Part shown: in pieces, positions 3,682-27,364 of the stretch
How the letters are laid out: each line of letters opens with the position of its first letter
Position numbering within the stretch: the stretch's first letter is position 1
Virus record (IMG/VR): IMGVR_UViG_3300036827_000072
Span: 1 to 42,576 of that record
Length of the DNA stretch: 42,576 nucleotides
Reading direction: 5' to 3' (one strand)
Source: a virus
Made by a program: the position numbers and the translations under genes
Notes under the pieces: generated by a model
Seen by the model: the letters and a program-made list of their open reading frames with translations, nothing else
Databases searched by the model: none
Told to the model about the DNA's origin: nothing

Positions 3682-3875
3682 CGTTCGTCCGCCGCCGCTC
3701 GACGAAGGCTCGCGTGCGCCCTGGCGACATCCTCGAGACACACGCGGGGAAGCGGTTCACCTATCAGCACGTCGGCGTGCCCGGCACCTCGATCATCGTT
3801 CACCCGACCGGCACCACGCATCCGACCCGGCCGCGGCGCGTGGCCGGCTTCGCCGACTTGGAGTGGTCGCGGTGA
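3678..3875 (+). CDS. Small basic protein (65 aa)
   Basis: ATGA overlap with the gene before. The chain is very basic at the N-terminus (RRRSTKARVRPGD) and has a short beta-rich body, suggesting nucleic-acid binding. The stop lies inside the start region of the sbcD-like gene (GTG 3872). Confidence 0.55.
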   Translation: MTFVRRRSTKARVRPGDILETHAGKRFTYQHVGVPGTSIIVHPTGTTHPTRPRRVAGFADLEWSR

Positions 3876-5071
3876 CTCGCTTCCTCTGTGTCGGCGACCT
3901 GCACCTCGGCGCCGGCCCCGACTACGGCCGCGAGCCCGGCAACCGGCTGCGCGACCAGGAGTTCGTGTGGGAGCGCGTGCTCGAGCTCGCCGTCGAGCAC
4001 GACGTCGACGCCGTCCTCTTCGCCGGCGACGCGTTCCACCGCCGCCGCCCGACACCGGCGGAAATGATCGCGTTCCAGGGTCCGCTGCAGCGCTTCACGG
4101 CCGAGCATGACATCGAGGTGTGCGCGATCGCCGGCAACCACGACTGCGAGGCCGCCGACCTGCCGACCGCGCTCGACGTCTTCGGCCGCGACATCGACCT
4201 CTACACCCGCCCGGGTGTCTGGCACGCCGACGGCGGCGCGTCGGTGGCGTGTCTGCCGTGGTCGCCGGTGTCGCGCTTGGTCGCGGCGCGGAATGGTGGG
4301 GACCGTGATGACTTGAATCGTGAGGCGGCCGAGCTGCTGCTTGCAACCGCGCGCGGGCTTCGCGCTCAGATCCCGAGCGGACAGCCGGCCGTCCTCATGC
4401 TCCACTGGTCGATCTCGGGTGCGTCGACGCCGTCGGGTGTGATGACGGACGACTTCCGTGAGGTCGTGCTCGAACTGGCCCACCTTGAGCAGCTCGGCTT
4501 CGACGCGATCGTGGCGGGCCACATCCACAAGCCGCAGCGGCTCGACGTCGTCGAGGTCGGCGCGCAGTCTCCGATCTTCTACACCGGGTCGCCCGCGCCC
4601 GTCGACTTCGGCGAAGGTGAGAGCGAGCACGGCGTCTGGATCCTCGATGTCGGCGCCGGCGCGACGCGGCTGCAGTTCGTGCCGGTCGTGTCGCGTCCGT
4701 TCGTGACGATCGACTGCAGCGGCGTCGCGCTCTCGACCGCAGGCCCGCGCGTCGACCTGTGCCTCTTCGACGAGGACGAGGACGTCGCCGGGGCTGTCGT
4801 GCGTGTGCGGTACACGGCGACTGAGGAGCAGGCGCGGCGGATCGACCAGGGCGACATCCGTCGCACGCTCTACGACGCCGGCGCTCACAAGGTGCATTCG
4901 ATCCAGGCGACGATCGAGCGCGAGGATCGCGCACGCGTCGCCGGCGTCGACGAAGACCTCGACACGTTGGCCGCCCTGGATCTGTGGTTCGAGTCGGAGG
5001 TCATCGACGGCTGGTTGCGCGACGAGCTCCGCACCCTGTCGGCCCGCTACCTCGAAGAGGTCGGAGCGTGA
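3872..5071 (+). CDS. sbcD: SbcD/Mre11-like metallophosphoesterase nuclease
   Basis: A 399-residue protein with all calcineurin-type nuclease motifs: GDLHLG (Asp9, His11), AGDAFHR (Asp53), AGNHD (Asn89-Asp91) and GHIHKPQ (His217, His219). These bind two metal ions in Mre11/SbcD/T4 gp47 nucleases. The GTG at 3872 overlaps the previous stop; an upstream GTG at 3863 would add three residues. It sits directly before an SbcC-like ATPase with a 4-bp overlap, so the two should form the nuclease-ATPase complex that processes DNA ends and hairpins. The likely role is end resection to feed RecT. Confidence 0.9.
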   Translation: MTRFLCVGDLHLGAGPDYGREPGNRLRDQEFVWERVLELAVEHDVDAVLFAGDAFHRRRPTPAEMIAFQGPLQRFTAEHDIEVCAIAGNHDCEAADLPTALDVFGRDIDLYTRPGVWHADGGASVACLPWSPVSRLVAARNGGDRDDLNREAAELLLATARGLRAQIPSGQPAVLMLHWSISGASTPSGVMTDDFREVVLELAHLEQLGFDAIVAGHIHKPQRLDVVEVGAQSPIFYTGSPAPVDFGEGESEHGVWILDVGAGATRLQFVPVVSRPFVTIDCSGVALSTAGPRVDLCLFDEDEDVAGAVVRVRYTATEEQARRIDQGDIRRTLYDAGAHKVHSIQATIEREDRARVAGVDEDLDTLAALDLWFESEVIDGWLRDELRTLSARYLEEVGA

Positions 5072-7266
5072 ACCCGATCGCGATCCGGGCGACGAACGTG
5101 CGCACGTTCGAGAGCCTCGACCTCGACCTCCCCACCGGGTGCGTCGTGATCGCCGGCGAGAACGGCGCGGGCAAGTCGACGATCCTGAACCTGATCGACG
5201 TCGCGCTATTCGCCGAGCGCGGCGAGCTCCGCGCGTTGCTCTCGCTCGGCGAGGAGGAGCTGACGATCGAGCTGCAGTTCGAGCACGCCGGCGAGCTGTA
5301 CCGGGTGCGGCGCATGTACTCCGGCAAGGGCGCCGGCAAGACAACGCTCGACCTCGAGCACGCCGGCACCGGCGAGCCCAGCGACGAGCTCTGGATGCCG
5401 CTGACGCGTGAGACGGCGATCGCGACGCAGGCCTACCTCGAGCAGGTGCTCGGGCTTTCCCGGGCGACGTTCCGCGCGAGCTCGTTCCTCGCCCAGGGAG
5501 ACGGCGCCGCGTTCACCGACGCCCAGCCCCGAGACCGGAAGGCGATCCTCGCCGAGATCCTCGGGCTCGGTCTGTACGACCGCCTCCAGCAGCACGCACG
5601 CCTCGAGCTCAGGCCGGCCGAAGACCAGATCGTCGAGCTGCGCGGGAAGATCTCGCGCCTCGAGGAGGACGCCGCCGGCGCTACACAAGCACAGGCCGAC
5701 CTCGCGACCGCGCGCGGCGACCTGGCCGCGGCGCTCGAGCAGCACGCCGCCGCGGAGCAGCAGCTCGAGCAGGCCCAGCAGGCCCATGCTGTGAACGCCG
5801 CCGCCCACGAACGGTGGTTGCGCGCCGGAGCCACCCTCGCCGCCGTCCAGGCCGACCAGGAGCGCGCACGCGTCGCCTACGCCGCCGCAGTGCAGGCCGG
5901 CATCGACCGTGAGGGACGGCAGCGAGATCTCGACCAGGCGGCCGAGGTCGCCGCAACCGCGGCCGGGCTTGAGGAGCGCATCACCGCCGCCAACGCGATC
6001 GTCGGACTGGTCAAGGCCCGTCGCGAGCTCGACCGTGAAGCCGACCAGCGCGACCTCGCCCGCGAACGCCTCGCCCGTGAAGCGACGCAGCTGGGCGAGC
6101 ACGTCGCCGAGCTGAACCGCAAGGCCGACCACCTCGACGCGCACATCGGTGAGGCCTCAGAATGTGACCGCTGCGGACAGACCCTCGGCGCGGAAGCCGC
6201 GGCCCGTGCGGCGGCCAGCTACCGCGCCGAGGCAGCCGTCGCCGCCGACCGCGCCGACCTGATGGCCGCCGGCGACGTCGCCGAGCAGGAAGCCGTCGAC
6301 GAGCTCCGCGAACGCGCGGCCGCGATCGAGATCCCCGAGACGATGGAGGACACCGCCAGGCTCGGGCAGCTCCTCGCTGCGGCTCGTGCCGCCGGCGAAC
6401 GCCGCGCTGTGCTCGTCGAGCAGGTGCGGCAGCTCGCCGAGCAGGCGGCCACGGCCGCCGAGCTCGCGATCAAGCTGGCCCACGCCGCCGACGCGACGAA
6501 GGAGGCCGAGAGCGCGACGGCCGACGCGGCGGCCCAGGTCGGAGACGTCACGCAGCTCGAGCAGGCTGTCGCCGGCGCACGCGCAACCCTTGCGAACGCG
6601 AGCTATTCGGTGGCCGGCTACCGCGACCAGATCGCCCGCCTCGAAGTCGCCGAGCAGCACGCCGTCAAGGCGGCCGACGAGGCACAGCAGGCCACGGTCG
6701 AGATCAGCGCGATCGCGTTGCGCGTCGACGTGCTGAAGCTCGCCGACCGAGCGTTCGGCCGCGACGGCATCCCTGCCCTGATCGTCGAGAACGCCGCGAT
6801 CCCGCAGCTCGAGGTCGAGGCGAACCGGATCCTCGTCGAGCTCGGCGGTGCGACCGCCGACTGCCGCGTCGAGCTGCGCACGCAGCGCGCCCTCAAGACC
6901 GCCGATGCGCTGCGGGAGACGCTCGACATCGTGATCGTCACACCTGCCGGTGAGCGGCCGTACGAGTCGTTCTCGGGCGGCGAACGCACCAGGCTGAACC
7001 TCGCCCTCCGGATCGCACTCGCCAGGCTGCTCGCGCACCGTCGCGGCGCCGAGAGCAGGTTGCTCGCGATCGACGAGCCCGAGTTCCTCGACGAAGCCGG
7101 CGTCGCCCGCCTCGCCGACGTGCTCCGCGGCCTGTCGGGCGACTTCGACCGGATCCTCCTCGTCTCGCATCACCCGACGCTCGCCGCGGCGTTCGACCAG
7201 GCGATCGTCGTCGTCAAGGACGGCGACCGGTCCCGCGTCGGCGACGCCGTGGCGGTGCCAGCGTGA
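5068..7266 (+). CDS. sbcC: SbcC/Rad50-like ATPase
   Basis: A 732-residue ABC-type ATPase in two halves. Walker A GENGAGKST is at residues 30-38; the ABC signature SFSGGER is near 634-640 and Walker B RLLAIDEPE near 664-672. Between them lie two long coiled-coil arms rich in Ala/Glu/Gln/Arg, with a zinc hook CDRC at Cys366-Cys369. It is somewhat shorter than cellular SbcC (about 1000 residues), as in T4 gp46. It should dimerise through the hook and drive the SbcD-like nuclease. The GTG overlaps the sbcD stop. Confidence 0.9.
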   Translation: MNPIAIRATNVRTFESLDLDLPTGCVVIAGENGAGKSTILNLIDVALFAERGELRALLSLGEEELTIELQFEHAGELYRVRRMYSGKGAGKTTLDLEHAGTGEPSDELWMPLTRETAIATQAYLEQVLGLSRATFRASSFLAQGDGAAFTDAQPRDRKAILAEILGLGLYDRLQQHARLELRPAEDQIVELRGKISRLEEDAAGATQAQADLATARGDLAAALEQHAAAEQQLEQAQQAHAVNAAAHERWLRAGATLAAVQADQERARVAYAAAVQAGIDREGRQRDLDQAAEVAATAAGLEERITAANAIVGLVKARRELDREADQRDLARERLAREATQLGEHVAELNRKADHLDAHIGEASECDRCGQTLGAEAAARAAASYRAEAAVAADRADLMAAGDVAEQEAVDELRERAAAIEIPETMEDTARLGQLLAAARAAGERRAVLVEQVRQLAEQAATAAELAIKLAHAADATKEAESATADAAAQVGDVTQLEQAVAGARATLANASYSVAGYRDQIARLEVAEQHAVKAADEAQQATVEISAIALRVDVLKLADRAFGRDGIPALIVENAAIPQLEVEANRILVELGGATADCRVELRTQRALKTADALRETLDIVIVTPAGERPYESFSGGERTRLNLALRIALARLLAHRRGAESRLLAIDEPEFLDEAGVARLADVLRGLSGDFDRILLVSHHPTLAAAFDQAIVVVKDGDRSRVGDAVAVPA

Positions 7267-14909: not shown

Positions 14910-15229
14910 ACCCGCACTCTCAGATCAGCGGCGACCAGCAAGGCATCGCACAGGCGCGGCCGCAGGTCGCACCGGCACCCAGGTCGGAGATCGCCGAAGC
15001 ACACAGCGACCTCCACGACGTGATCAGCAGCCTCGAGGACCGCGTCGACAACCTCGCCGCCCAACTCGGCTCGATCCTGCGCCCGCCGTCGCCGTCGGAC
15101 GAAGCCGCGAAGGCCGTCGACCGTCCCGGCAGCGACGTCGAGCTCGCCGACAGCGTGCACGTCCAGGTCTCCCGCCTCCGCACGCTCCACGCACGGCTGA
15201 ACGACCTCTCCCACCGCATCGCCCTCTAG
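14906..15229 (+). CDS. Hypothetical coiled-coil protein (107 aa)
   Basis: A good Shine-Dalgarno (GAAAGGAG) precedes the ATG. The middle is helical (AHSDLHDVISSLEDRVDNLA) and the end again (VSRLRTLHARLNDLSHRI), so it may oligomerise. No family recognised. Confidence 0.6.
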   Translation: MNPHSQISGDQQGIAQARPQVAPAPRSEIAEAHSDLHDVISSLEDRVDNLAAQLGSILRPPSPSDEAAKAVDRPGSDVELADSVHVQVSRLRTLHARLNDLSHRIAL

Positions 15230-15257
15230 TCCCTCTCCCCGGAAGGAGCCACACCGC

Positions 15258-15734
15258 ATGGCAACCACCACCGAAGAGTCCGCGCTCGAGCGCCAGGTGC
15301 GCGAAGAAGACGAAGCCCACGCACGCAAGCTCGCCGACCTCGCCAACGACGACCTCGACAACAGCGACGCGATCGCCGACCCGCCGCTCGAGGACACAGC
15401 GACCGGGCAGACCGCGATCATCGACCGCTCCGCCTACGAGCGCGAAGACCTGCAGATCCCGAAGATCGACGGGCAGACCGTCGACCGGATCGCGCTCAAG
15501 TTCGGCGGCACCGTCTACCTCGACCGATCCGACGCATCCGACGTCGCCGTCTACAACGAGCTCCGCTTCGGCCGCGACGTCGAGCTGCTGATCGACGCGA
15601 AGTGCCTCGGCGTCGGCGCATCCGGCGCCACGAACAAGGACGGCAACCTCGACGTCGTCGTCAGCACCAAAGGCCTGAAGGTGCACTCGATCTCGAAGCC
15701 CGCCGGCGCCGACTGGGTGAAGGACGCCGCCTAG
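15258..15734 (+). CDS. Hypothetical acidic protein (158 aa)
   Basis: Preceded by GGAAGGAG. An acidic helical N-terminus (residues 1-60) is followed by a compact beta-rich domain (IALKFGGTVYLDRSD, VELLIDAKCLGVGASG). It lies directly before the replication initiator, so it may have a replication-linked role. I do not recognise the fold. Confidence 0.6.
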   Translation: MATTTEESALERQVREEDEAHARKLADLANDDLDNSDAIADPPLEDTATGQTAIIDRSAYEREDLQIPKIDGQTVDRIALKFGGTVYLDRSDASDVAVYNELRFGRDVELLIDAKCLGVGASGATNKDGNLDVVVSTKGLKVHSISKPAGADWVKDAA

Positions 15735-15763
15735 ACGAACCGACACTCGAGGAAGGGGTCACA

Positions 15764-16450
15764 TTGCCGTACATCCGCGTCGACGTCGACGTGCGCACCG
15801 ATCCCCGCTGGCATAACGCCAGCGGGGTCGTCCGCGCCCAAGCCAAAGCGCTCTACCTCGACGCCGTCTCCTACAGCGGCGAGCTCCTCACCGACGGCCA
15901 CGTTCCCGCGACGGTGATGGCCGGCCTGGCGTCCGAGCTCGGCATCAAACGCCCCGGCGTCGTGCTCGCGTTCCTGACGGGAACGCGACACGAAACGGCC
16001 GAGTTCTCTGCGTCAAACACCCGAGAACGCGTACAGGAAAGTGCTTCGTTCTCGCCTCTTTCGGGACACCTTGCACGCACGAAATCGGGGTACTTCATCC
16101 GAGAATGGGAACGCTTTCACGACACACGATCCACAGTCCAGAAACGCCGAACCCAAGCAGCAGAGCGGAAACGGGCCAGTCGTGCACAGGGCAGGCTCCC
16201 GATGTCACACGAGGAGTCACACCGTGACGTCACACCTATGTCACAGCGTGACATCGAGCGTGACTCGCGCGGGCGCGTACCCACACGAGAAGTAGAAACA
16301 GAAGAGGACCCTAAGGCCGTTGACGTACAGCACCACGACGCCGACGACATCGAGCCCAGCCTCGACGACGACGAACCCAGCGCCGCGGCCGGCAACGGCA
16401 CGGCCTTTGCTCACACATTCGAAACCCCCGACCTCCTCCGAGAGTTCTGA
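15764..16450 (+). CDS. Replication initiation protein (phage Rep/replisome organiser-like)
   Basis: A TTG start at 15764, preceded by GAGGAAGGGG, gives 228 residues. The N-terminal ~100 residues resemble phage replisome-organiser domains: PYIRVDVDVRTDPRW, then AQAKALYLDAVSYSGELLTDGHVPATVM. These are winged-helix DNA-binding modules. A basic region (KRRTQAAERKRASR) and an acidic tail follow. The nucleotide sequence of the linker carries iteron-like repeats (16202-16265), the layout known for lambda O. The gene is markedly less GC-rich from about 16000 to 16310 than its neighbours. I infer a role in origin binding and helicase recruitment. Confidence 0.7.
   Translation: MPYIRVDVDVRTDPRWHNASGVVRAQAKALYLDAVSYSGELLTDGHVPATVMAGLASELGIKRPGVVLAFLTGTRHETAEFSASNTRERVQESASFSPLSGHLARTKSGYFIREWERFHDTRSTVQKRRTQAAERKRASRAQGRLPMSHEESHRDVTPMSQRDIERDSRGRVPTREVETEEDPKAVDVQHHDADDIEPSLDDDEPSAAAGNGTAFAHTFETPDLLREF
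16202..16265. other. Iteron-like repeat cluster, candidate replication origin
   Basis: Four direct copies of GTCACA begin at 16204, 16216, 16229 and 16240, spaced 11-13 bp (about one helical turn). Three inverted copies of GTGAC start at 16224, 16248 and 16260. The cluster lies within the replication-initiator coding sequence and is followed by an A/purine-rich stretch around 16285-16312. Origins embedded in the initiator gene are known from lambdoid phages. The function here is inferred. Confidence 0.6.
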
Positions 16451-16728
16451 TGCCCATCCAGCCGTCAGACCTCTACGAGCTCCTGAAGAAGATCCGCTAC
16501 GACGCAACCGCGATCCAAGCGAAAGTCACCGACGCGCTCAACCTCCTCAGCGCGCTCAACCTCCCCGACCAGCCCACCACACCCTGCCCGCACTGCGGCC
16601 TCGAAGTCGCCGGCCCACGCTCCCTCGCCGAACACCTCCACAACCTCCACGACGGCCCAGTACCCGAGCACTACGCCGCCATCGAGGCACTCGCCGACGA
16701 GCTACACGACCAGGCGGCCGACAAGTGA
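16450..16728 (+). CDS. C2H2-type zinc-finger protein (92 aa)
   Basis: TGATG overlap with the replication gene. A helical N-terminal half is followed by CPHCGLEVAGPRSLAEHLHN and a further His, the Cys2His2 spacing of a classical finger. Small phage proteins of this kind accompany replication genes. Role unknown. Confidence 0.65.
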   Translation: MPIQPSDLYELLKKIRYDATAIQAKVTDALNLLSALNLPDQPTTPCPHCGLEVAGPRSLAEHLHNLHDGPVPEHYAAIEALADELHDQAADK

Positions 16729-16928
16729 CACGCGAACGCCTCCGCGCACTCCACACCGCCGGCGTCATCACCGAACGCGAGCACGAGATCCTCGACTACC
16801 GCGCACGCGGCATCAGCCAGTGGACGATCGCGATCGCGCTCCACATCTCACCATCGACCGTCAAGTCAACCGAACGCAACGCCCACCGCAAGATCGCCAA
16901 CCACAGCGACCAGGAGGACGCCGCATGA
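16725..16928 (+). CDS. LuxR/sigma-region-4-like HTH protein (67 aa)
   Basis: GTG start. The chain ITEREHEILDYRARGISQW, then IAIALHISPSTVKSTERN, is a near-textbook LuxR/sigma-70 region-4 HTH, including the ISPSTVK recognition helix. It is almost nothing but this domain. Sitting next to last in the early region, just before the terminator and the late operon, it is a good candidate for the activator of late transcription. This is inference from position and fold. Confidence 0.75.
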   Translation: MTRERLRALHTAGVITEREHEILDYRARGISQWTIAIALHISPSTVKSTERNAHRKIANHSDQEDAA

Positions 16929-17164
16929 CGACACGCGTCGACGAACGCCCACCCGCCGTACGCACACGCGCCGAAGCCCTCGCCCTCCTCGACCTCCACA
17001 ACGCCGAAAGGATGGTGCGCATCGCACGCGAGACCGAGACCACCCCGGCCACCCTCACCCCACGCCACGAGCTCACGAAGCCAGGCGACGAGCAAGCAGC
17101 ACGAGGCGTGCCCATCCTCGGCTTCCCCGGCACCAGCGGCGCGATCGCAGGCACCCGACCTTGA
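16925..17164 (+). CDS. Hypothetical protein (79 aa), last early gene
   Basis: ATGA-coupled to the HTH gene. A basic N-terminus, a helix (TRAEALALLDLHNAERMVRI) and a disordered Gly/Pro-rich end. No family recognised. Confidence 0.5.
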   Translation: MTTRVDERPPAVRTRAEALALLDLHNAERMVRIARETETTPATLTPRHELTKPGDEQAARGVPILGFPGTSGAIAGTRP

Positions 17165-17440
17165 CGACATCCGACCAACCTGCTTCACTCACCACGTCTA
17201 GCGAACGGGCACGGGACAGGCTGACTGAACGCCTGCACCCACCCAACCGCCCAGCGCGCTCACTCGCTCACCAGCCGGCCAACCAGTCGGCTTTTCTATG
17301 CCCGCGCCCAGCACACAGCCACGCGTCGCGAGGGCTCACCGTGCACGCCATCACCCGGGGGGTGGGTCAGCGACGGGCTATGGGCGCGTCACTCACCCGT
17401 CCTGGGGTCGAAAAATCCGGTTACGGGTTCGGGGGATTGA
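17165..17440. other. Early-late junction, 276 bp without a clear gene
   Basis: Holds a terminator-like hairpin (17273-17297) and a G-rich palindromic run, CACCC-ggg-GGGTG (17352-17364). A TTG ORF starting at 17161 runs through it and on into the glycosyltransferase gene in another frame; I do not accept it as coding. The late promoter and, possibly, the cohesive-end site could be here, but neither is identified. Confidence 0.45.
17273..17297 (+). terminator. Probable terminator of the early operon
   Basis: AGCCG (17273-17277) pairs with CGGCT (17288-17292), followed by TTTCT. The stem is short (5 bp with a 10-nt loop) but the T-run is unusual in this GC-rich genome and it lies right after the last early gene. 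Confidence 0.5.
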
Positions 17441-18856
17441 ATGAGCGACCGCGTGATGGCCGGTGTCGCGTCGATCCCGGAGCGTGTCGGTTCGCTCGAG
17501 CGGACGGTCGCGTCGCTGGCGCCGCAGGTCGATCGGGTCGTGGTCGCGTTGAACGAGTACGAGCATCCGCCGCAGTTCCTGGCGAGGCACGCGAACGTCG
17601 AGGTGCTGATGCGCGGCCCGGTGAACGGCGGCGACGCGGAGAAGTTCGCCGGCGTCGACGAGTGGGACGGGTTCGTCGCGACGTGCGACGACGACCTGCT
17701 CTACCCGCCCGACTACGTCGAGACCCTGGTCGCCGGTGTCGAGCGGTACGAGCGTCGCGCCCTGGTCGGGTTCCACGGCGGCACGACGCTCGGGTGGACT
17801 GGCGCCGCGCTCGCGGCGACGCACAAGCAGATTCGCTGCCTCGGCGAGCTCGACGTCGACGACGTCGACGTGAACGTGGTCGGCACCGGGGCGATGGGCT
17901 TCCACGCCGATCATGTGCCGGTCTGGCGTGACGCGTTCCCGTTCGCGAACATGGCCGACGTTCAGCTCGCGTGTCACGCGCGGCGGCTCGGTGTGCCGAT
18001 GGTCGCGCTTGCGCACGAGGCCGGCTGGCTGACGGACATCTGTCCTGCGGACGGCCGCCGGATCTACGAGTCGAACCAGGCGCGCGACGGGTCGGCTTGC
18101 GACACGCGTTCGCTGCGCCGGGCGGAGCTCGACCGGGTCGACTGGGTATCGCCTGCGCCGGCGCGGCCGCGGGTGCGTGTGTCGATCGCGACGTGTGCTC
18201 GGCCGCACTTGCTGCCGGGGCTGCTCGCCGACCTTGTCCGGGAGGCCCGGTGGGTCGATCTCGAGGTTGCGGTGTTCGAGGATCCTTCGGATGCCGACTA
18301 CGCCGATGCGCGCGCGATCGTCGCGGAGCACGGCTGGAGCTGGCATCGGTTCGATGAGCGGCTCGGGAAGCGTGAGCACTGGCAGCTCGTCAACCTCGAG
18401 CTCGCCAGGTGCCGGTTCTCGGACGCGGGCTGGTTCGCGTTCCTGCCCGACGACGTCAGGCTGACCCGGCATGCGTTGCCGCGTGCGATGCAGATCTGGG
18501 ATCGCCTCGAGGAGCCGGCGGCGTTGACGCTGTGGCGGCTGAAGGATCACGAGGGGCAGCCGAACTGGACGGGGTTGCCGCCGGTCGAGCGCGAGCATGC
18601 GTGGGAGGTCTTCCACCTCGACGGGATCTATCTCTGCCGCCGGGAGACGCTTGAGCACCTCGGTTTCGGGTGCCCGGCGCTGTCGCGGCAGCGGCTGACG
18701 TCGAGCGGTGTCGGGCGTGCGATGTCGATCCAGTTGCACGCCGGCGGGAAGCGCCTCTACCGCGTCGACCGGTCGCTCGCGATCCCCGTGATGGACGAGC
18801 CGAGCGTGATGAACCCGGACGCCCGCGACCGCCTCTACCCCGGGGTGGCGCTGTGA
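17441..18856 (+). CDS. Two-domain glycosyltransferase (GT-A-like)
   Basis: 471 residues made of two successive GT-A-like halves. The first begins VMAGVASIPERVGSLERTV and has an acidic nucleotide-sugar site in TCDDDLLYP (Asp83-Asp85). The second begins near residue 244 (RVRVSIATCARP) and has FLPDDVRL (Asp337-Asp338). GGGGGA precedes the ATG. It probably transfers sugars to a virion protein, DNA or a host surface glycan. Mycobacteriophages are known to glycosylate capsid and tail proteins with their own glycosyltransferases, and this gene sits at the head of the structural operon. The longer leftward frame over the same bases has no motifs and is a shadow. Confidence 0.75.
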   Translation: MSDRVMAGVASIPERVGSLERTVASLAPQVDRVVVALNEYEHPPQFLARHANVEVLMRGPVNGGDAEKFAGVDEWDGFVATCDDDLLYPPDYVETLVAGVERYERRALVGFHGGTTLGWTGAALAATHKQIRCLGELDVDDVDVNVVGTGAMGFHADHVPVWRDAFPFANMADVQLACHARRLGVPMVALAHEAGWLTDICPADGRRIYESNQARDGSACDTRSLRRAELDRVDWVSPAPARPRVRVSIATCARPHLLPGLLADLVREARWVDLEVAVFEDPSDADYADARAIVAEHGWSWHRFDERLGKREHWQLVNLELARCRFSDAGWFAFLPDDVRLTRHALPRAMQIWDRLEEPAALTLWRLKDHEGQPNWTGLPPVEREHAWEVFHLDGIYLCRRETLEHLGFGCPALSRQRLTSSGVGRAMSIQLHAGGKRLYRVDRSLAIPVMDEPSVMNPDARDRLYPGVAL

Positions 18857-24734: not shown

Positions 24735-27364
24735 AACACGACTACCGGCTGCTCGGACAGCTCGTCTCCGAGACGCCTTGGCAGATCCTGCCGTCGAAGC
24801 TGCACGAGATCCAGCAGTTCTGGTCGCGCGTGCTCGCCGGCGACGTCCTGTCGGACGCGGAGATCGAAGAGATCACGTCGGCGGCGCAGCAGCGCCGCTC
24901 GAGGCCTGCGGCCGGCTCGATCGGTGTGCTGCCGCTCTACGGGTCGATCTTCCCGAAGGCGAACCTAATGGCCGACATCAGCGGCGGCACCTCGCTCGAC
25001 GCGTTCGCCGCGGTCTACCGCGGGATGATGGCCGACCCGAACATCGCCGCGGTCGTGATGGACGTCGACTCGCCCGGCGGGTCGGCGGCGATGCTCACCG
25101 AGACGGCCGCGATCATTCGCAAAGAGAAGACGAAGCCGCTCGTCGCGGTCGCGAACACGATGGCCGCCTCTGCGGCATTCGGTCTCGCCGCCCAGGCCGA
25201 TGAGTTCGTCGCGTCACCGTCAGCGGTTGTCGGCTCAGTCGGCACCTACATGCTCCACCAGGACCTGACCGCGGCGCTCGAGGCCGAGGGCGTGAAGATC
25301 ACGGCCATCCAGTCGAGCCCGGCAAAGACTGAGACGGCACCGTTCGTCGCTCTCTCCGACGAAGCGCAGCAGGCGCTGCAGCACATGGTCGACCAGTACC
25401 AGGCGATCTTCGTTTCTGACATCGCGAAGGGCCGCGGCACGACCGACGCGACTGTCCGGAAGAACTACGGCGACGGGCGCCTCCTCACGGCGCAGGACGC
25501 GCTGGCCGCTGGGATGGTCGACCGCGTCGACACGTTCGAGAAGGTCGTAACAGGGCTCCTCAAGAGCAACGGGTCGATGTCGATGGGCCGGTCGACGGCG
25601 TTCATTCCGGCCCGTGACGGCGAGCGCGAGCTCGTCGGGGTCGGCGAGGCGGTCGCGGCCGCGTCGGCTGACTTCCGGGCGATGCCGGTCGAGCAGCTCC
25701 GCGAGGTGTTCTTCGGGCTGCTCCCCGCCGGCGCGACGCCAGCGCCGAAGGGCTCGAGCGAGACGGACGCGCTCGCCGAGCCCGTCAAAGAACTCGACGC
25801 CATCCCGGCGTCAGTGCAAGCGACCGCAGCCGCGGTCACCAGCCGCGCGACGGCGACGGCACCTACCCCCAAGGCCAAGGAGGCCACAGTGAAGAGCAAG
25901 GAAGAGCTCGTCGCGCAGCGCGAGACCCTCGCGGCGCGGACGCAGGAGATCAACACCGAGCACTCGGGCACGCTGCTCGAGGGCGAGCCGCGCGTCGAGT
26001 ACGACGAGGCGATGCAGGCGATCGACCAGATCGACATCACCCTCGCCGACCTCGCGAAGCGGGAGGCCGACCAGGCCCGCATCGGGGCCGTCGCCGAGGC
26101 GAACAAGGACGCGATCGAGGGCGGCAACGGCGCAGTCGCGCGGAAGTCGTTCGGCACGAACGCCGACCGCAAGGGCCCCCAGAACATCTGGGACCTCGCG
26201 GGCTACCAGAAGCACGCACGCTCGCTCGACGAGCTCGCGGGCCTCTACGCGGACGGGGCGAAGCGGGCGAACGAGACGGTGCTGTACGCGACGGACAAGC
26301 AGGAGCGGCCGAAGTCGTTCGTCGAGCAGCTGCTCGGCGCCGACTCGAAGGATGCCCAGTTCGCCCAGCGGATGATCGTCACGTCCGACCCGGCGTTCGA
26401 CAAGGCGTTCGGGAAGCTCGTGATGGGCCGGCCGCTCTCGAACGCCGAGCAGTCGCTGATCAACCAGGCCGTCACGATCACGGGCCTCGGCGCGGAGACG
26501 CCGGTGCCGGTGCAGATCGACCCGACGGTGCTGCTCACCTCCGACGGGGTCGCGAACCCGATGCGGGCGATCAGCCGCAACGTCACGATCACCGGCAACA
26601 CCTGGAGGGGCATCTCGTCCGACGGCGTCACGGTCGACTACGCGGCGGAGCTCGCCGAGGTCACCGCACAGACGCCGACCTTCGACGCACCGGACGTCAC
26701 GGTCGTGAAGGCGCAGGCCGAGGTGCAGTTCTCGATCGAGGCCGACGAGGACTGGGGCGCGCTCCGGTCCGAGCTCGCGCTGATGTTCCAGGACGCGAAG
26801 GACACCAAGGAGGCGAACAAGTTCCTCTTCGGCGACGGCTCCGACGAGCCGGAAGGGCTGATCACGGCCCTCACGACCGACGGGACCTCGATCATCGACA
26901 CGGCGTCGGTGAACACCCTCGCGATCTCCGACCTCGACCTGGTCGTCGACGACCTGCCGCCGCGCTTCGACGCGAACGCGCAGTGGATCGGCAACCGCGG
27001 CGTCTACTCGGCGCTGCGGGCCCTCGCGGGCAGCCGGCTCGACTTCTGGGTGCCGCTCGCCCAGGGCTTCCGGAATCGGCCGCAGGGCACGACCGGCTAC
27101 ACCCTGATCGACTACCCCGTGAACGTCGCGTCCGAGATGTCGCGCGCGGTCACGACCGGGAGCGAGAAGGTGCTCGTCCTCGGCGACTTCGGCCGCGGCT
27201 TCGTGATCGTCGACCGGGTCGGCCTGAACGTCGAGCTCGACCCGCTCGTCCGCAACAGCAACGGGAAGCTGATCGGGGCGCGTGCGCTCTACGTCTACTT
27301 CCGCAACACCTCCGCGCTCCGGACGCCGAACGCGTTCCGGATGCTCCGGATCAAGCACAGCTAA
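24731..27364 (+). CDS. S49-type prohead protease fused to HK97 major capsid protein
   Basis: One 877-residue frame. Residues 1-~290 are an S49/SppA-like serine protease: DVDSPGGS (111-118), nucleophile Ser147 in TMAASAAFG, and Lys198 in AKTETAPF matching the catalytic Lys of this family. A Pro/Ala-rich linker (about 320-385) follows, then a delta/scaffold-like helical region (about 387-470), then the HK97-fold capsid (ITGLGAETPVPV through ALYVYFRN). The protease should mature the prohead. Fusions of this sort have been seen in some phages but are uncommon. An internal start at 25889 probably makes the capsid part separately. Confidence 0.88.
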   Translation: MKHDYRLLGQLVSETPWQILPSKLHEIQQFWSRVLAGDVLSDAEIEEITSAAQQRRSRPAAGSIGVLPLYGSIFPKANLMADISGGTSLDAFAAVYRGMMADPNIAAVVMDVDSPGGSAAMLTETAAIIRKEKTKPLVAVANTMAASAAFGLAAQADEFVASPSAVVGSVGTYMLHQDLTAALEAEGVKITAIQSSPAKTETAPFVALSDEAQQALQHMVDQYQAIFVSDIAKGRGTTDATVRKNYGDGRLLTAQDALAAGMVDRVDTFEKVVTGLLKSNGSMSMGRSTAFIPARDGERELVGVGEAVAAASADFRAMPVEQLREVFFGLLPAGATPAPKGSSETDALAEPVKELDAIPASVQATAAAVTSRATATAPTPKAKEATVKSKEELVAQRETLAARTQEINTEHSGTLLEGEPRVEYDEAMQAIDQIDITLADLAKREADQARIGAVAEANKDAIEGGNGAVARKSFGTNADRKGPQNIWDLAGYQKHARSLDELAGLYADGAKRANETVLYATDKQERPKSFVEQLLGADSKDAQFAQRMIVTSDPAFDKAFGKLVMGRPLSNAEQSLINQAVTITGLGAETPVPVQIDPTVLLTSDGVANPMRAISRNVTITGNTWRGISSDGVTVDYAAELAEVTAQTPTFDAPDVTVVKAQAEVQFSIEADEDWGALRSELALMFQDAKDTKEANKFLFGDGSDEPEGLITALTTDGTSIIDTASVNTLAISDLDLVVDDLPPRFDANAQWIGNRGVYSALRALAGSRLDFWVPLAQGFRNRPQGTTGYTLIDYPVNVASEMSRAVTTGSEKVLVLGDFGRGFVIVDRVGLNVELDPLVRNSNGKLIGARALYVYFRNTSALRTPNAFRMLRIKHS
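25889..27364 (+). CDS. Internal in-frame start: scaffold plus major capsid product (491 aa)
   Basis: Inside the fusion gene, AAGGAGG at 25877-25883 precedes an in-frame GTG at 25889 by 5 bp. Initiation here would give 491 residues: a charged coiled-coil delta-like domain (KSKEELVAQRETLAARTQE) followed by the capsid. This recalls lambda C/Nu3, where the scaffold is translated from inside the protease gene. It would solve the stoichiometry problem: many capsid subunits, few proteases. Confidence 0.72.
   Translation: MKSKEELVAQRETLAARTQEINTEHSGTLLEGEPRVEYDEAMQAIDQIDITLADLAKREADQARIGAVAEANKDAIEGGNGAVARKSFGTNADRKGPQNIWDLAGYQKHARSLDELAGLYADGAKRANETVLYATDKQERPKSFVEQLLGADSKDAQFAQRMIVTSDPAFDKAFGKLVMGRPLSNAEQSLINQAVTITGLGAETPVPVQIDPTVLLTSDGVANPMRAISRNVTITGNTWRGISSDGVTVDYAAELAEVTAQTPTFDAPDVTVVKAQAEVQFSIEADEDWGALRSELALMFQDAKDTKEANKFLFGDGSDEPEGLITALTTDGTSIIDTASVNTLAISDLDLVVDDLPPRFDANAQWIGNRGVYSALRALAGSRLDFWVPLAQGFRNRPQGTTGYTLIDYPVNVASEMSRAVTTGSEKVLVLGDFGRGFVIVDRVGLNVELDPLVRNSNGKLIGARALYVYFRNTSALRTPNAFRMLRIKHS

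Follow-up and report, generated by a model that had tools for sequence, protein, structure and literature searches.

A cluster of seven GTCAC/GTGAC half-sites contained within 61 bp (16204-16264) of a replication-initiator gene is very probably the place where copying of the phage genome analyzed here starts, because many related phages carry the same kind of sites. The window, i.e., the whole stretch of DNA under analysis, is the IMG/VR record IMGVR_UViG_3300036827_000072 (42,576 bp, ~69% GC). We consider it likely, with good confidence, that the half-sites are iterons bound by the initiator encoded in the same gene and that, together with the lower-GC DNA next to them, they form the replication origin. 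The assignment as initiator binding sites takes into consideration their location inside the initiator gene, in the linker that immediately follows a basic stretch of the protein, their helical-scale spacing, and their recurrence in a family of replication initiation proteins.

The genes recognized in the window code for a terminase, a portal protein, a head protease/major head protein, an integrase, RecT, and SbcC/SbcD-like proteins. This content is that of a high-GC tailed phage, probably with a temperate lifestyle, and its hosts appear to be actinobacteria. The SbcD-like and SbcC-like genes are found side by side in the early region (3863-7266), close to the RecT gene; SbcC and SbcD are the subunits of a palindrome-specific nuclease. 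Protein searches of viral_contigs and genome_contigs identified no close relatives of the initiator. A search for relatives of the phage by means of its terminase produced 80 loci. The initiator of the window belongs to the phrog_2447 family, and a gene of this family was present in just 3 of the 47 records examined among these terminase relatives; no initiator was detectable in L002, which has a terminase 93% identical to that of the window. Since the terminase relatives, L002 included, mostly lack the initiator, a near-identical array was unavailable for comparison. The initiator gene and its conserved domain are located as follows.

15764-16450, + strand: replication-initiator gene, TTG start, 228 aa, phrog_2447 family, aligned with 41 relatives
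15764-16198, + strand: N-terminal domain, conserved in the alignment of the relatives, presumed to bind DNA

The identification of this gene as a replication initiator, originally proposed from the nucleotide sequence, was borne out by the match of residues 1-181 to phrog_2447, annotated as "replication initiation protein" (E 4.1e-18). Weaker matches were to phrog_3926 (E 9.5e-7) and phrog_9474 (E 2.2e-4), both with the same annotation. An Arg/Lys-rich basic stretch closes the N-terminal domain just ahead of the array, and the C-terminal part consists of nothing beyond a short acidic tail. Searches of Pfam, NCBIfam and solved structures assigned the protein to no family, with no significant relative among the solved structures. 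The absence of a Pfam match extended to Phage_rep_org_N (PF09681), a family matched by one of 42 relatives at E 0.0026. A distant member of the initiator family is matched by 307 records of isolated actinobacteriophages, and the protein profile for the family retrieved 80 loci from bacterial genomes, nearly all of them Actinomycetota. A family-wide profile was dropped as scan query since the family is too diverse. In phages Antuna, Appa, BrayBeast, Dardanus and MrSmee, the initiator gene is directly followed by genes for a helicase loader and/or a DnaB-type or other helicase, an arrangement that fits the initiator role. In the window, no phage helicase, helicase loader or DnaB was recognized among the subset of ORFs examined. 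The small ORF located directly 3′ of the initiator (16450-16728) has a CPHC...HLHNLH zinc-finger-like pattern and matches no family; it could be a replication partner of the initiator.

The array begins some 440 bp inside the coding region. GTCACA starts at positions 16204, 16216, 16229 and 16240 (spacing 12, 13 and 11 bp) and GTGAC at positions 16224, 16248 and 16260, exactly where the first-pass annotation had placed four and three copies, respectively. That annotation described them as direct repeats with inverted copies. The copies stand, and a better description is that of one array distributed over both strands on a 12-bp lattice. Six of the seven half-sites fall exactly on this lattice (all 15 pairs) and all seven are within 1 bp of it; the spacings of 13 and 11 are the consequence of a single copy, at 16229, being 1 bp off. 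The array is nearly symmetric around position 16234: a + + - unit at 16204/16216/16224 is mirrored by a + - - unit at 16240/16248/16260, and the odd copy at 16229 lies between them. The individual half-sites are listed below.

16204-16208, + strand: half-site 1, GTCAC(A), exactly on the 12-bp lattice
16216-16220, + strand: half-site 2, GTCAC(A), no deviation from the lattice, forms an inverted pair with half-site 3 across an ACC spacer
16224-16228, - strand: half-site 3, GTGAC (GTCAC on the - strand), partner of half-site 2
16229-16233, + strand: half-site 4, GTCAC(A), 1 bp off the lattice, abuts half-site 3 (GTGACGTCAC)
16240-16244, + strand: half-site 5, GTCAC(A), no deviation from the lattice, forms an inverted pair with half-site 6 across an AGC spacer (ATGTCACAGCGTGACAT)
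16248-16252, - strand: half-site 6, GTGAC, partner of half-site 5
16260-16264, - strand: half-site 7, GTGAC, exactly on the lattice

One could suppose that the half-sites, as a by-product of repetitive SH/RD/VT residues in the peptide linker, have no function at the DNA level. The linker is indeed hydrophilic and of low complexity, and VTR/SH/RRDS residues are encoded in many relatives. Against this explanation, when MSHEESHRDVTPMSQRDIERDS was recoded synonymously, drawing codons from the genome's own codon usage and keeping the encoded peptide, 200,000 draws produced a maximum of 6 half-sites (eleven times), compared to the 7 observed (p < 5e-6). Uncommon codons make up the half-sites: TCA, which accounts for 8% of the Ser codons, CGT (14% of Arg) and ACA (9% of Thr). 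The analysis of 92 family members by the synonymous test showed that pairs of 5-mers at 11 bp are about five times as frequent as expected (147 vs 26-32), and those at 12 bp (211 vs ~80) and convergent, i.e., inverted, pairs at 7-8 bp (119 vs ~38) about three times. The excess was also found in the 54 members that lack GTCAC clusters (at most one GTCAC), in which the counts at 11 bp, at 12 bp and for inverted pairs were 54, 140 and 50, while 13, 59 and 20 were expected (roughly four-, two-, and two-and-a-half-fold, above all 100 reshuffles). An offset of 11 bp is not a multiple of three, so such repeats shift the reading frame.

Reading-frame usage (INDEPENDENCE) was also determined in 50 distinct arrays of at least four half-sites. 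Most of these loci were found through the motif itself, and consequently they describe the form and place of the arrays rather than their frequency. Family membership was established by profile match (E < 1e-6 for this set, E < 0.01 for the strict-scan loci described below, nearly all matches being far stronger). All 42 arrays located in the gene use two or three reading frames; in the other eight cases the initiator gene is shorter, and the array coincides with its stop codon or closely follows it. Protein constraint cannot produce a pattern of multi-frame arrays and of arrays past the stop codon. The half-sites are selected as DNA and not as protein; the synonymous and reading-frame tests already contradict the by-product explanation, which we regard as extremely improbable. 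Conservation of the repeats beyond protein constraint, a check named in the first-pass annotation, was thus tested with the synonymous nulls and with relatives, and the repeats passed.

The recurrence of the array was assessed by scanning 2.9 million viral contigs for DNA patterns with no protein information. A loose pattern, GTCACNNNGTGACN{0,20}GTCAC, was found at 80 loci or more; among the matches listed, seven encode a member of the initiator family (E of 7e-19 for the weakest), each of them with the motif in the initiator gene or at its end. The complete scan with the strict pattern GTCAC-NNC-GTGAC-N7-GTGAC resulted in 71 loci, 42 of which overlap or abut (within 30 bp) an initiator frame of the family. 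Two more (L260 and L275) are just past one, for a total of 44. When the spacing was changed from N7 to N9 as a control, only three loci were found (L183, L197 and L298), with no detectable family initiator in their contigs. The strict-scan hits in initiator genes, taken with the N9 control, indicated that the motif is specific to both the gene and the spacing. In most of the relatives that share the half-site, its spacing and its place in the linker, identity in the protein domain is no higher than 25-50%. Dense GTCAC/GTGAC arrays were also observed in contigs of 41-72% GC without a detected family gene (L112, L114, L121, L139, L144 and others); these could represent either unrelated repeats or the origins of different replicons.

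The lattice statistics were obtained from relatives found by protein alone (profile-found loci and named phages) and are for this reason free of selection by the motif. Linkers amounting to 35.5 kb contain 176 GTCAC/GTGAC pairs no more than 40 bp apart, compared to 93 in 402 kb of flanks, i.e., in eleven times as much DNA. While 149 of the 176 linker pairs (85%) are on the 12-bp lattice (±1 bp), this is the case for 20 of the 93 flank pairs (22%). The lattice distances are 12, 24 and 36 bp for half-sites on the same strand, 8, 20 and 32 bp for convergent pairs, and 16, 28 and 40 bp for divergent pairs. The two members of a convergent pair are separated by 3 bp, which read GCC, GGC, AGC or ACC in 74 of 78 cases, the final C being partly imposed by the scan pattern and the first two letters being free; the window has ACC and AGC. 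The arrays comprise four to nine half-sites. A chance cluster, for which nothing but the shortness of the motif speaks, has a practically negligible probability. Of the 129 GTCAC/GTGAC copies in the genome, seven are in the 61 bp of the array and no other 61-bp stretch holds more than three; the synonymous null, the blind scans with their N9 control, and the lattice statistics also stand against it, and it is already contradicted by the recurrence in relatives.

In members without GTCAC, the linker often holds repeats with a different core, likewise 11-12 bp apart; examples of such cores are CGAAC, GTAAC, GAAGC, AGACG, ATGCG, GTCGA and CGAATC. Several initiators of Streptomyces prophages have a second repeat set, CGAATC/ATTCG at steps of ~11 bp, upstream of the GTCAC inverted pair (L300, L303, L306, L307, L310, L313, L317, L322 and others). 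Co-variation between the core and the sequence of the initiator domain was not significant (the nearest neighbor shares the core in 11 of 42 cases; the shuffled mean was 6.8 and the maximum 15), which may reflect a fast turnover of the cores or a core assignment that is too coarse. That the initiator is the protein that binds the array is therefore deduced from location and family, not from co-variation.

Two other functions were considered for an element selected as DNA. In one, the array is an operator that controls transcription of the initiator operon by autoregulation or as a roadblock, with the initiator or another regulator as the bound protein. Selection at the DNA level and dyad sites would suit any DNA-binding protein, and self-regulation is common among plasmid initiators. 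Nevertheless, the array is deep in the coding region (in some relatives, at the 3′ end of the gene) rather than at a promoter; a scan of positions 15200-17500, restricted to sigma-70-type sites, found no promoter-like site; and four to nine half-sites exceed what is usual in operators. We deem this explanation unlikely, while a double role of the array, as operator and origin, is possible. In the other, a partition (parS-like) or recombination site merely travels with the initiator gene. Arrays of short repeats are also found at parS, and in some mycobacteriophages a parS locus lies beside repA (PMC7157519). Yet no parA or parB was recognized among the window ORFs scanned, an integrase is present, and the element accompanies the initiator gene in phages whose neighboring genes differ. 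We consider a site of this kind very unlikely. An origin formed by initiator binding sites is, of these readings, the one we prefer, and two stretches of DNA next to the array are candidates for its unwinding region.

16002-16130, + strand: lower-GC stretch upstream of the array (52-53% GC), putative alternative unwinding side
16287-16316, + strand: purine-rich stretch (80% A+G) of lower GC content, shortly after the array, candidate for the unwinding side

The DNA beside the array is among the lower-GC parts of the genome, yet it still has 47-57% GC. The 100 bp from 16031 have 53% GC, the second-lowest value for a separate 100-bp stretch of the genome, the 100 bp from 16215 have 57%, and 16287-16316 ranks among the most purine-rich 30-mers of the genome. 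The A/purine-rich and less GC-rich surroundings first reported for the array were thus confirmed in a modest form, and there is no strongly AT-rich tract beside it. The cumulative GC skew, a check that had also been suggested, has no inflection at the array and is uninformative either way. No DnaA boxes (up to one mismatch) were found near the array, and the longest perfect stem at positions 16200-16500 is that of the iteron pair, with 7 bp.

By analogy with oriLambda (PMC7466680) and SPP1 oriL (PMC6316719), the initiator complex would open the DNA and recruit a helicase. In the model that we propose, the N-terminal domains of several initiator molecules would bind the GTCAC half-sites, every 12 bp and on both strands, in two mirrored groups (16204, 16216/16224 and 16240/16248, 16260). 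The resulting nucleoprotein complex would strain and open the nearby purine-rich (16287-16316) or lower-GC (16031-16130) DNA, where the replicative helicase would then be loaded. A DnaB-type helicase of the host is the likely partner because no phage helicase or loader was recognized among the ORFs examined. Melting, helicase loading and the start of replication at the array are thus predicted from the arrangement of the sites and from this analogy.

The linkers of many relatives include additional modules. A C-tract with a period of 5 or 6 (CCCGA, CCCGT, CCCAT, CCCCGT) was found in 50 of 100 linkers and in 1 of 1203 control segments. All linker C-tracts are on the coding strand (none on the other strand) and are placed after the repeat region, e.g., in L306, L334, L336, L098 (Appa 1501-2313) and L106. 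The tract encodes PDPTR, PVPSR, SPSP or similar repeats, and its opposite strand is G-quadruplex-prone. Perfect hairpins of at least 8 bp are present in 57 of 100 linkers compared to 95 of 1203 control segments. They are inside the coding region, and their loops follow a few stereotypes, C(TACG)G, C(TTCG)G, C(TGAC)G and C(TAAC)G; as RNA, TACG and TTCG loops would be extra-stable UNCG tetraloops. In about two thirds of the 35 members with both elements, the hairpin is beside the tract or shortly after it. The distance is often 0-7 bp, as in L320 (CACCAGTACTTCCTACGGAAGTACTGGTG). The hairpin may be a terminator-like, a primer or a strand-loading signal. No C-tract like those of the relatives was seen in the sequence of the window.

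A broader reading, which we put forward tentatively and regard as nearly as probable as its opposite, is that these elements represent an apparently undescribed and widespread class of origins, a modular linker cassette in phages and prophages of high-GC bacteria. As one joint proposal, the cassette would consist of an iteron array on the 12-bp lattice with a core that differs between members and, in half of them, of a CCCGA/CCCGT/CCCAT tract found only on the coding strand and then often followed by a hairpin. Tract and hairpin would replace or assist the AT-rich unwinding element missing from GC-rich genomes, and the window, which has just the array, would represent a reduced form of the cassette.

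That an origin can lie within the gene of its initiator is already known as a principle, and origins of this kind are reportedly described as common in the 2006 review of phage replication modules by Weigel and Seitz. In the phage lambda origin, oriLambda, the repeats bound by the initiator are in the middle of gene O (PMC7466680). The first-pass annotation compared the window with this system, and the layout holds: in both cases the repeats are in the middle of the initiator gene, and the coding strand has an A/purine-rich stretch after them. The proteins are not recognizably related; the hhalign probability between the window initiator and lambda O is 0.1%, and lambda O matches phrog_277 and others but not phrog_2447. 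In addition, lambda has four 18-bp iterons located 20-24 bp apart and a strongly AT-rich tract, whereas in the high-GC DNA of the window the half-sites measure 5 bp and occupy a 12-bp lattice on both strands. Lambda also has gene P next door, unlike the window, where no loader was recognized among the ORFs examined. The oriL of SPP1, located in gene 38, has direct repeats bound by gp38 and an AT-rich unwinding element (PMC6316719). By this published description, it resembles the window in having the repeats within the initiator gene, but SPP1 encodes a loader (gp39) and a helicase (gp40) of its own, of which the ORFs examined in the window include no recognized equivalent. The rep gene of TP901-1 also has repeats in the middle, although there are three copies of a different repeat at a spacing of 15 bp; TP901-1 Rep belongs to phrog_186, has a C-terminal DnaB_2 domain, and gave an hhalign probability of 0.3% with the window initiator. 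In Miko and Jeeves, mycobacteriophages with extrachromosomal prophages, the origin is suspected to be in or next to repA, and the authors found no repeats in the regions examined (PMC7157519). Their initiator is a plasmid-type RepA, and the likeness to the window is the position of the suspected origin.

The systems that share the family of the initiator, the GTCAC half-site, the spacing and the linker position with the window are the initiators of Appa, Antuna, BritBrat and Streptomyces prophages (phrog_2447/phrog_30000). In many initiators of this type, the array is followed by a CCCGA/CCCGT tract and often by a hairpin, and the C-terminal region is longer; the window has none of these features. 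For Appa (initiator gp42) and BritBrat (initiator gp87), replication is predicted to start at about 26338-26450 of NC_047972 and at about 51125-51190 of NC_030942, respectively. No description of arrays in actinobacteriophage initiator genes was found in the open-access literature, subscription papers being outside the scope of the search; what comes nearest is the proposal on repA of mycobacteriophages mentioned above (PMC7157519). The protein family, the site grammar and the extra modules appear to be undescribed. If the proposed origin is correct, a single rule, half-sites paired at distances of 12, 8 and 16 bp within the linker of the initiator, would suffice to read the origins of many actinobacteriophages and prophages directly from their DNA, and origin mapping, the design of shuttle vectors and studies of phage replication would become directly testable. 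The lambda design would then recur with an initiator that has no recognizable relation to lambda O, in very GC-rich DNA and with no classical AT-rich element.
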